Assembly: GCF_000165485.1 (NCBI RefSeq) | Contig: NC_014623.1 | Location: forward strand, 1,011,501-1,075,500 | DNA length: 64,000 nt | Direction: 5' to 3' | Source of the DNA: Stigmatella aurantiaca DW4/3-1 | GTDB lineage: Bacteria > Myxococcota > Myxococcia > Myxococcales > Myxococcaceae | Shown here: in pieces, positions 35,428-36,910 of the stretch | Layout: each line of letters opens with the position of its first letter | Numbering within the stretch: the first letter of the stretch is position 1 | Notes under the pieces: model-generated | The model's database searches: none | Seen by the model: only the letters and a program-made list of their open reading frames with translations | Told to the model about the DNA's origin: nothing | Made by a program: the position numbers and the translations under genes

Positions 35428-35877
35428 TCAATCGCAGCGATCGCAGAGGCCGCGCAACTGGACCTCCACCGCCCGGGCCGCCACCGCCCGGGGCGTTCCC
35501 TTGACAGGTGTCAAGGTGATGGAGTCTTCGGGCAGGCACGCAACCGTTCCGCAGTCCGTGCAGGTGAAGTGCGCGTGGAAACCCTGGTGCTCCTTGCCCG
35601 CGCGGCGCAGCTCGAAGCGCCACACATGGTCCCCCAAGTCGGAGCGCAGCACGAGCCCCGCTTCGGTGAGATCCGTCAGGTTCCGGTAAAGGGTGACCCG
35701 GTCGAACCCCTCTTCGCCCAGCGCATCTACCAGATCCGCATGGCTCAAGGGGGCAGAGGCCGCCTCCAACTCGCGGAGCACGGCCACCCGGGGAGAAGTG
35801 CTTCGCAGCCCCACTGCGCGGATCTTCTGCTGGAGTTCGGCGAGCTTCGGCTGGGGAGAGCTCTTCTTGGCACCCAT
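35428..35877 (-). CDS. Fur-family metalloregulator, probably Zur
   Basis: The 149-residue protein has the complete Fur layout: a winged helix (LRSTSPRVAVLRELEAASAP, FDRVTLYRNLTDLTEAGLVL) and a dimerisation domain with FHAHFTCTDCG and a C-terminal CDRCD. The two CxxC pairs form the structural zinc site. Its divergent neighbour is a zinc-free L33 gene and then a DUF1826 gene, both typical members of Zur regulons, and a repressor-type operator-promoter lies between them. Zur is therefore more likely than Fur or PerR, but sequence alone cannot settle this. GAGGAG precedes the ATG closely. Confidence 0.88.
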   Translation of the reverse strand: MGAKKSSPQPKLAELQQKIRAVGLRSTSPRVAVLRELEAASAPLSHADLVDALGEEGFDRVTLYRNLTDLTEAGLVLRSDLGDHVWRFELRRAGKEHQGFHAHFTCTDCGTVACLPEDSITLTPVKGTPRAVAARAVEVQLRGLCDRCD

Positions 35878-35934
35878 GGGCTCCTCGCATAACCGATCTG
35901 CCAGGCACTTTCACCTGACCTGATGGTGGAATCC

Positions 35935-35963
35935 TTGAATTGTTTTTGCAACTTGGTTACAAT
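35935..35963 (+). promoter_or_regulatory. Sigma-70-type promoter with overlapping inverted-repeat operator
   Basis: TTGAAT (35935-35940) and TACAAT (35958-35963) are separated by exactly 17 bases, a strong promoter reading towards rpmG. Within the spacer and into the -10 lies the inverted repeat TTGCAAC-TTG-GTTACAA (35946-35962), six of seven positions paired. A protein bound there would block RNA polymerase. Given the neighbours, the Fur/Zur-family protein is the obvious candidate. Confidence 0.75.
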
Positions 35964-36030
35964 AACGGAGGTCCGATATTTCTTGGCCCCCTCTTGCACC
36001 GTGCGCGGGCCGCGCACGGGGAGTCTTCCC

Positions 36031-36195
36031 ATGCCCAAGGGCAATCGAACGATCATCCACCTTGTTTCCACCGCTGGCACCGGCTTTTTCTACACAACGA
36101 CGAAGAACAAGCGGAAGTCGCAGGAGAAGCTTGAGAAGAAGAAATACGACCCGCGTGTGCGCAAGCACGTGCTGTTCGTTGAGGGCAAGCCATGA
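36031..36195 (+). CDS. rpmG: Ribosomal protein L33, zinc-free form
   Basis: The 54-residue protein is full length for L33, with the family signature [19 protein letters not shown] and the basic C-terminal half ([18 protein letters not shown]). It lacks the two CxxC pairs of the zinc-ribbon form of L33. In many bacteria this zinc-independent form is made when zinc is short, under Zur control; others use it constitutively. A promoter with an overlapping operator lies 68 bases upstream, next to a Fur-family gene, which favours control by zinc. GGGGAG lies about eight bases before the ATG. The stop overlaps a short ORF by ATGA. Confidence 0.95.
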
Positions 36196-36248
36196 GCCTA
36201 CCGGCCGAGGACAAGCCCCGGTGGCCCTCATCCCGGGGGAGCGTGTGA
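36192..36248 (+). CDS. Possible 18-residue coupled ORF between rpmG and the DUF1826 gene
   Basis: An ATG at 36192 overlaps the rpmG stop (ATGA). It opens an 18-codon frame, [18 protein letters not shown], whose TGA overlaps the ATG of the DUF1826 gene (TGATG). Both junctions are of the kind used for translational coupling, so ribosomes could pass from rpmG to the DUF1826 gene through this frame. The peptide has no known relatives that I recognise and may have no function of its own. It could be chance. Confidence 0.35.
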
Positions 36249-36910
36249 TGGAGCCCGTGCTTCATGCCCAGCCCGTGCCCGTGGACGCGGGGATGCACGG
36301 CGCGAACGTCTTGGTCTGGCAGCCCTCGGAACTCACGGACATCTACCGCGAGGGGGTCAACTGCTGCGTGTGGCGGCGGGGGGTGAGCACCTCCTTGAGC
36401 CAGTGGCTGGGCCGGGTCTGTGCCCAGCATGCTTTGCAGGTGGTTGAGCGGGTGGACGCCCGGCGCGTGGACCTGCGTCCGGCGCTGAGGGAGTTGCCCG
36501 AGACAGCGGAGCGTGAGGCCTGGCTTGAGGATCTGCACCTGCTGCTGAATTTGTACGCCGATCTCTTTGGTGTCCGGGGGTTGGGCGTACGGCTCACCAC
36601 GTTGGATCGGGAGATGTGTCCGCGATTCCATGTGGATCGTGTTGGGGTCCGGCTGCTGTGCACCTATGCGGGGCTGGGCACCGAGTGGTTGGACAATGCC
36701 GACGTGATGCGGGGCGGCCTGGGGCCTCAGGGGCAAGTGCTGCGTCCGGGAGGGAGCGTGCGGCGGATGGAGCGCTTCGATGTGGCCCTCCTCAAGGGGG
36801 AAGCATGGCCGGGCAACGCAGGCAACGGGGTGGTTCACCGCTCGCCCGTCATGGGAAGTCAGGCGCACCGGAGATTGCTGCTCTGCGTGGATCCGGTGGA
36901 CATCGGTTGA
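36248..36910 (+). CDS. DUF1826 protein, probable zinc-regulon member
   Basis: The 220-residue protein starts at ATG 36248 with GGGGGAG upstream. It contains the DUF1826 hallmark near residues 120-145, FHVDRVGVRLLCTYAGLGTE, followed by WLDN. Also typical are VLVWQPSELTDIYREGVNCC near the N-terminus and VHRSPVMGSQAHRRLLLCVD at the end. The His-x-Asp and the second His suggest a metal site like that of 2-oxoglutarate oxygenases, an inference from the motif only. DUF1826 genes are often found with Zur-controlled genes, and here the gene follows zinc-free L33 beside a Fur/Zur-family repressor. GTG at 36221 is an alternative start. Confidence 0.85.
   Translation: MEPVLHAQPVPVDAGMHGANVLVWQPSELTDIYREGVNCCVWRRGVSTSLSQWLGRVCAQHALQVVERVDARRVDLRPALRELPETAEREAWLEDLHLLLNLYADLFGVRGLGVRLTTLDREMCPRFHVDRVGVRLLCTYAGLGTEWLDNADVMRGGLGPQGQVLRPGGSVRRMERFDVALLKGEAWPGNAGNGVVHRSPVMGSQAHRRLLLCVDPVDIG

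Follow-up and report, generated by a model that had tools for sequence, protein, structure and literature searches.

We analysed a window of 64,000 nucleotides from the myxobacterium Stigmatella aurantiaca DW4/3-1 (NC_014623.1, positions 1,011,501 to 1,075,500; G000:C1:1011501-1075500 in our numbering), whose genome is a single contig, C1, of 10.26 Mb. At issue is a Fur-family regulator gene that diverges from a two-gene cassette encoding a cysteine-free paralogue of ribosomal protein L33 and a DUF1826 protein, together with an inverted repeat between them that we propose as the operator of a putative Zur. The features, in window positions, are as follows.

35428..35877, minus strand: Fur-family regulator, proposed Zur; 149 amino acids; PF01475 at 48.5 bits (cut-off 23.1)
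35935..35940, plus strand: -35 element TTGAAT of the rpmG2-DUF1826 promoter
35946..35962, no strand: candidate operator TTGCAAC-TTG-GTTACAA, proposed Zur site; also present in front of zinc-related genes elsewhere in this genome and in related genomes
35958..35963, plus strand: -10 element TACAAT, overlapping the right half-site of the repeat
36031..36195, plus strand: rpmG2, L33 paralogue without cysteine; 54 amino acids; PF00471 at 62.5 bits
36248..36910, plus strand: DUF1826 gene, predicted Fe(II)/2-oxoglutarate oxygenase fold; 220 amino acids; PF08856, E-value 1.3e-59

Both the divergent arrangement and a TTGAAT-17-TACAAT promoter with an inverted repeat in its spacer had been put forward in a preliminary description of this DNA; the open reading frames (ORFs) and their matches to PF01475, PF00471 and PF08856 confirm the first, and the second was recovered as described. 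TTGAAT-17 base pairs (bp)-TACAAT is the sole promoter-like match in the intergenic region 35878-36030, which separates the minus-strand Fur-family gene from plus-strand rpmG2, and it agrees at 9 of 12 positions (mean in shuffled sequence, 0.1). The repeat TTGCAACTTGGTTACAA (35946-35962) falls within the promoter spacer and over the -10 element, with 6 of 7 arm positions able to pair. Its 15-bp core, TGCAACT-T-GGTTACA, can be written as a 7-1-7 inverted repeat, which is the layout of Fur-family sites. The right arm reads GTTACAA instead of the symmetric GTTGCAA, a departure that may keep a usable -10 element. In 8 of 29 oriented asymmetric sites (TGCAAC...GTTACA) a TTG stands precisely 11 bp ahead of the 17-mer, the spacing also seen in the window, with TTGNNN-17-TACANN spanning the repeat; 18, nearly all of them TonB-receptor promoters, carry TTG at -5.

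To place the repeat in its own genome, matches were counted against the reversed pattern, the control used for all pattern counts given here. With at most one mismatch, the 17-mer TTGYAACNNNGTTRCAA occurs at three places in 10.26 Mb (the window, C1:1693694 and C1:7449665); with at most two it occurs at 18 places against 12 for the control, which is near background, so that loose matches alone mean little. The strict core TGYAACNNNGTTRCA is present at three places against 0, all three at zinc-related genes, and the relaxed core TGYAAYNNNRTTRCA, chosen only after the rpsR2 site described below was known, at six places against 0. Five of these six lie upstream of rpmG2-DUF1826, rpmB2-rpsN2, rpsR2, zigA and a DUF418 gene, and the sixth (C1:5673461) lies inside a 577-codon open frame. 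The 13 loose matches away from regulon genes comprise six inside called ORFs, five with no called ORF nearby, one within an ORF and before another, and one preceding an ORF; judged by eye, none of the 13 has a zinc gene behind it.

The site at C1:1693694 stands 62 bp before rpmB2 (L28), which is followed by rpsN2 (S14), and the site at C1:7449665 stands 16 bp before the gene for a COG0523 GTPase with a CICC motif (L049:4699-5943), which scores 638.3 bits against the ZigA zinc metallochaperone model NF038288 (cut-off 600). The site at C1:1694773, with two mismatches to the 17-mer, adjoins the S18 paralogue rpsR2, while that at C1:3772920 lies just before the DUF418 gene (PF04235), whose product is 71% identical to a protein behind an exact site in another genome, G045. 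A copy with one core mismatch lies where the genes for a TonB-dependent receptor (PF07715) and a secreted-looking protein begin in opposite directions; should translation start at the inner ATGs, this copy would fall between the two genes. The name MbnP for the secreted partner was dropped, the protein having no Pfam or NCBIfam match.

Genome-wide paralogue searches, which covered L33, L28, S14 and S18, returned pairs of genes for L33, L28 and S18 and, for S14, three matches, one of them partial. The main copies retain their cysteines: L33, at C1:6199857, has CTTC...CPRC, L28 has CDIC...CTRC, S14 has CPLC...CRIC, and S18 has CRFC plus one more cysteine. In the repeat-side copies these are lost, L33 and S18 having none and L28 and S14 one each, and all four of these spares adjoin the repeat. 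Because cysteine-bearing L33, L28, S14 and S18 copies are also encoded, the label "zinc-free", which the preliminary description had applied to the L33, is justified. The same pattern of zinc-independent ribosomal paralogues appears in other Zur regulons (PMC3087516; PMC2770081). The partial S14 match, at C1:9431249-9431365 (L184), covers profile positions 2-40 of 54, has no site near it, resembles the zinc-free form and is apparently a gene remnant.

We then examined conservation across the order, where 28 of 145 genomes have a PF08856 match. Taking the best copy where a genome has two, 20 of the 26 readable DUF1826 operons carry WTGYAACNNNGTTRCAW with at most two mismatches within 700 bp upstream (none in seven operons, one in seven, two in six); the W ends of this pattern were set after matches had been seen. 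Control windows, 200 per locus drawn from the same loci read backwards, reached three mismatches in 3.3% of cases and never two or fewer. The preliminary description had made its reading depend on conservation of the repeat in related genomes, and, given these 20 of 26 operons, the repeat is conserved. The operon order is L33-COG0523-DUF1826 in 14 of the 26, in some cases followed by L28-S14.

Across 142 genomes the exact core yields 142 sites against 17 for the control, in 66 genomes against 17; without the outlier genome G042 the count is 124 against 17. Of the 142 sites, 85 distinct ones were classified, 14 of them in G042. For 48 of the 71 outside G042, a gene of the kinds linked to the repeat in the own genome stands no more than about 720 bp away; 19 of these 48 sites are at the TonB-receptor pair, 19 at ribosomal spares, COG0523 or DUF1826 genes, 9 at a Fur-family regulator alone, and 1 at a regulator with COG0523. 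Another 10 adjoin genes added to the list by hand, namely three MopE-motif lipoproteins, two CbiM-like and two DUF418 proteins, one NicO-like protein with COG0523, one RibA, and one transporter named by eye. These class numbers are descriptive, since many of the 71 sites are orthologous and thus nonindependent (19 being the TonB-receptor promoter) and the loci selected for the presence of DUF1826 or the regulator are a biased sample.

Several of these sites touch genes beyond the core set. Genes for MopE-motif lipoproteins and for DUF418 membrane proteins (L131, L140, L155 and L132, L142, L224) have exact or relaxed sites in front of them and are candidate new regulon members. In one genome an exact site (L141; G048:C1:5166767) lies 220 bp upstream of a gene for GTP cyclohydrolase II (RibA). 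CbiM-family transporter genes stand directly behind the site at L125/L228 and L167/L227, with COG0523 further on; at L228 the regulator gene also lies in the CbiM/COG0523 cluster, which was possibly acquired as a unit.

A repeat of this kind could also be a chance palindrome or the stem of a transcription terminator, and two observations favor such an explanation. One is the near-background count of loose 17-mer matches given above; the other is the outlier G042 (6.9 Mb; L098-L111), which holds 18 copies of the core, and where, among the 14 copies listed, six lie between converging genes, five inside called ORFs and three elsewhere. Many of the G042 copies indeed look like terminator stems or background. 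The window repeat, however, lies between divergent genes and inside a promoter, no terminator was found there, the core counts are 3 against 0 and 6 against 0, and the site is conserved upstream of DUF1826 operons. We therefore consider chance or a terminator stem extremely unlikely for the window.

Regulator and site tend to occur in the same genomes. Strong orthologues (E-value below 1e-25) are present in 87 of the 142 genomes, including 85 of 93 in the family of the window. The core site occurs in 56 of the 87 genomes with a strong orthologue against 10 of the 55 without (Fisher p 6e-8), and in 55 of 85 against 1 of 8 within the family of the window (p 0.006), these tests being uncorrected for the relatedness of the genomes. 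The genomes that have the core without a strong orthologue are concentrated in a second family, f2 (9 of its 12, against 1 of the other 43); with f2 set aside, the core is found in 1 of 43 genomes lacking a strong orthologue (Fisher p 6e-13, likewise uncorrected). Of the 13 sites fetched from f2, 7 precede Fur-family genes; four of the encoded regulators were aligned and show 31-32% identity to that of the window, an arrangement that would fit a divergent homologue controlling its own gene. In a third family, f3, the site is confined to G023, which is likewise alone in having a strong orthologue; this protein is 60% identical, and its gene belongs to a CbiM-like/COG0523 cluster that follows the site. 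In another set of 80 public loci, drawn from around homologues of the regulator, 13 contain the relaxed core (15 sites against 0 in the control), and several of the 15 sites adjoin TonB-receptor, DUF1826, COG0523, S18 or S14 genes; the homologues at these loci include proteins at 42-54% identity from Planctomycetota and Binatia metagenome-assembled genomes (MAGs). In two Planctomycetota MAGs (L280 and L308) a core-like site starts 86 and 124 bp before the matched regulator stretch.

Based on the gene identities, the cysteine loss, the positions, recurrence and conservation of the sites, and the co-occurrence of regulator and site, we propose, with a probability of roughly 85%, that the Fur-family protein encoded at 35428-35877 is the Zur of this myxobacterium and represses a zinc-starvation regulon through a GC-containing operator. 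The Zur regulon reading of the preliminary description is to this extent supported, as far as sequence can tell. We infer that the regulator binds the site with zinc as its ligand and represses by binding, and that the TonB system serves to import zinc, free or chelated. In the proposed mechanism, a zinc-bound Zur dimer would bind the 15-bp 7-1-7 inverted repeat TGCAACN-n-NGTTGCA and, as the position of the repeat in the spacer and over the -10 element suggests, would exclude RNA polymerase from the rpmG2-DUF1826 promoter. When zinc falls, the regulator would leave the site, and the derepressed genes would supply zinc-free L33, L28, S14 and S18, sparing the zinc held in ribosomes, together with the metallochaperone GTPase ZigA, the DUF1826 protein, the DUF418 membrane protein and the TonB-dependent receptor system.

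A number of observations weigh against this proposal, and most concern places where a site is missing or unexpected. An exact core is absent from 30 of the 85 strong-orthologue genomes of the family, no site with two or fewer mismatches precedes 6 of the 26 DUF1826 operons (genera g18, g24 and g26), and, of the 71 distinct exact sites classified in genomes other than G042, 13 lack a recognized gene nearby. The W ends and the Y/R relaxation of the patterns were, moreover, widened after matches had been seen. The preliminary description had suggested looking for the repeat at other zinc genes of the same genome; this was borne out for COG0523 (zigA), the rpsN paralogue with rpmB2, and rpsR2, but not for the single ZnuA-family gene (PF01297; C1:6352610), whose 3.8-kb locus has no site with up to three mismatches and 4-mismatch matches only. 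Finally, no site stands beside the regulator gene in 21 of 30 loci, and none was found in the flanks of 67 of the 80 further loci, including all named Myxococcus and Corallococcus; autoregulation is for this reason not general. The last result would also be expected if the repeat were the operator of a different repressor and the adjoining Fur-family gene a coincidence. Against such a coincidence stand the co-occurrence of regulator and site (56 of 87 against 10 of 55, or against 1 of 43 outside f2) and the case of f3, where site and strong orthologue are confined to one and the same genome and share a CbiM-COG0523 cluster, and we judge it very unlikely.

The sequence of the regulator itself likewise gives less direct support for the name Zur than the regulon does. 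Against the NCBIfam Zur model NF008646 it scores 22.5 bits, below the cut-off of 167, and its best NCBIfam Fur model gives 41 bits, above its Zur score; its best solved relative is a Fur (E-value 1.9e-9), with FurB (2o03) matching at 1.3e-5 and 4mtd, a zinc uptake regulation protein, at 0.0059. In addition, some sites have CbiM-like or NicO-like genes beside them, as would also suit a response to cobalt or nickel. These features raise the alternative of a Fur-family repressor that controls the same regulon in response to another signal (iron, manganese, nickel/cobalt or peroxide), as does the f2 regulator found at the same core (L112), which matches PerR and FurB structures about equally well. 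The four ribosomal spares that lack zinc-ligand cysteines, together with ZigA and DUF1826, nevertheless indicate zinc, and a search for FUR proteins found a second, canonical Fur gene in the genome, whose product matches solved Fur proteins at an E-value of 4e-34. We regard a different signal as quite improbable. The protein is thus best described, from its sequence, as a distant FUR-family member whose designation as Zur comes from its regulon. Four of its cysteines form two CxxC pairs (C106, C109, C145 and C148), the layout of a structural zinc site, and are invariant in 13 of 13 aligned sequences. Among residues considered for the regulatory zinc-sensing site, H101 is likewise invariant in all 13, while in the eight closest rows H97 is kept in seven and H103 and C114 in all eight.

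The locus varies among relatives. In the sister genome G077 (L188), whose regulator is 98% identical, there is neither a DUF1826 match nor an L33 at the corresponding locus; the repeat is retained in the altered form TTGCAACATGGCTGCAA, and the -35 and -10 hexamers have decayed. The next called gene beyond zur in G077 is the histidine-kinase gene that in the window follows the rpmG2-DUF1826 cassette. In six relatives (L056, L057, L162, L170, L171 and L172) a small reading frame lies between operator and L33; its translation begins with a hydrophobic stretch and has histidines and cysteines in the pattern HAHR-C-H...H..C. In the window, the predicted rpmG2 leader contains a perfect 9-bp hairpin, CCGTGCGCG-GGC-CGCGCACGG (35999-36019), 11 bases before the ATG; compared with shuffled sequences, folding of the leader shows no extra stability (z -0.87).

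To characterize the second product of the cassette, we aligned 23 DUF1826 sequences from this order. All 23 share H128-x-D130, H197 and R209 as well as, among others, C124, F127 and K183-G184. An HxD...H iron triad with an arginine that binds 2-oxoglutarate (2OG) is the signature of Fe(II)/2OG oxygenases. An AlphaFold2 model built from this alignment (mean predicted local distance difference test, pLDDT, 87.9; predicted template-modeling score, pTM, 0.85) displays a predicted double-stranded beta-helix, the fold expected of an Fe(II)/2OG oxygenase. Foldseek places ACC oxidase first (E-value 5.8e-6), and the best 50 rows are all, by title or by what we take them to be, members of the Fe/2OG-type oxygenase superfamily, bar one cupin-type seed protein. 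With a second structural aligner, the best match has a Z of 11.1 over 169 residues at a root mean square deviation of 3.6 Å, and 49 of the best 50 rows are presumably Fe/2OG-type oxygenases, judged in the same way, one being titled only bsmA homologue. The Foldseek TM-scores by model length, the cupin row apart, are moderate (0.37-0.54), so that the match is to the superfamily and not to a close family; by sequence, the search for a solved relative gave no convincing match (best E-value 0.01). DUF1826 is thus a predicted Fe(II)/2OG oxygenase on the strength of its model and conserved residues. In the relevant passages, PMC2770081 labels DUF1826 just as a family of unknown function, PMC5786701 links it to predicted succinylglutamate desuccinylases, and PMC9431628 places it in the Pseudomonas aeruginosa Zur regulon, beside zigA; those passages contain no description of it as an oxygenase.

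Zur itself, zinc-free ribosomal spares, ZigA and the presence of DUF1826 in Zur regulons are already known; new, within the reach of our searches, are the Myxococcota operator and regulon and the interpretation of DUF1826 as an oxygenase. A literature search for a myxobacterial or Planctomycetes Zur found none described, judged by the titles listed apart from the papers cited. We lean slightly toward the wider view that Myxococcota, and possibly some Planctomycetota, use a separate Zur lineage with a GC-containing operator specific to it, and that DUF1826 is an Fe(II)/2OG oxygenase. In that case zinc starvation would lead cells to make an iron enzyme. The site would allow Zur regulons to be annotated across Myxococcota, with DUF418 proteins, CbiM-like and NicO-like transporters, the RibA paralogue and MopE-motif lipoproteins as further candidate members, and the model offers a structural hypothesis for a recurrent Zur-regulon protein of unknown function. 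The proposed operator differs from that of P. aeruginosa Zur.

The closest parallel in gene content is with the Zur regulons of Actinobacteria, which are likewise controlled by a Fur-family repressor. As listed in the part of PMC3087516 concerned, Mycobacterium tuberculosis has the same four zinc-free paralogues (S14, S18, L28 and L33), and Streptomyces coelicolor has S14, L28, L31, L32 and L33A. The core found here, TGCAAC-N3-GTTGCA, contains G and C, whereas the same source calls established Zur sites AT-rich. That 2009 study, which used Zur profiles from other groups, reports in the part concerned no site near ribosomal paralogues in its remaining genomes, with M. xanthus among those in its table; the present repeat thus supplies a concrete candidate operator for a group in which such profiles had found none near these paralogues. 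In the P. aeruginosa regulon, PA5534 (DUF1826), PA5535 (zigA) and PA5536 (dksA2) lie together, so that DUF1826 and ZigA are again side by side, but that regulon includes znuABC, whereas no site is present at the ZnuA gene here, and its named spares are L31, L36, DksA2 and FolE2 (PMC9431628). In Francisella, RNA-Seq in work on Zur identified the DUF1826 gene FTN_1758 among others; the same paper groups DUF1826 with predicted succinylglutamate desuccinylases, in contrast to the oxygenase fold of our model (PMC5786701).

A parallel for the proposed enzyme is found in Caulobacter, where cciO, encoding a Fur-regulated 2OG/Fe(II) dioxygenase, is paired with the TonB-transporter gene cciT (PMC11870441). 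Both systems would place a 2OG oxygenase under a metal-uptake regulator with a link to a TonB receptor; the Caulobacter system belongs to iron and Fur, whereas zinc and Zur are proposed here, and DUF1826 is a separate Pfam family. By analogy with the CciO/TonB-receptor pair, the DUF1826 protein, if an oxygenase, may perhaps process a zinc chelate or carrier.

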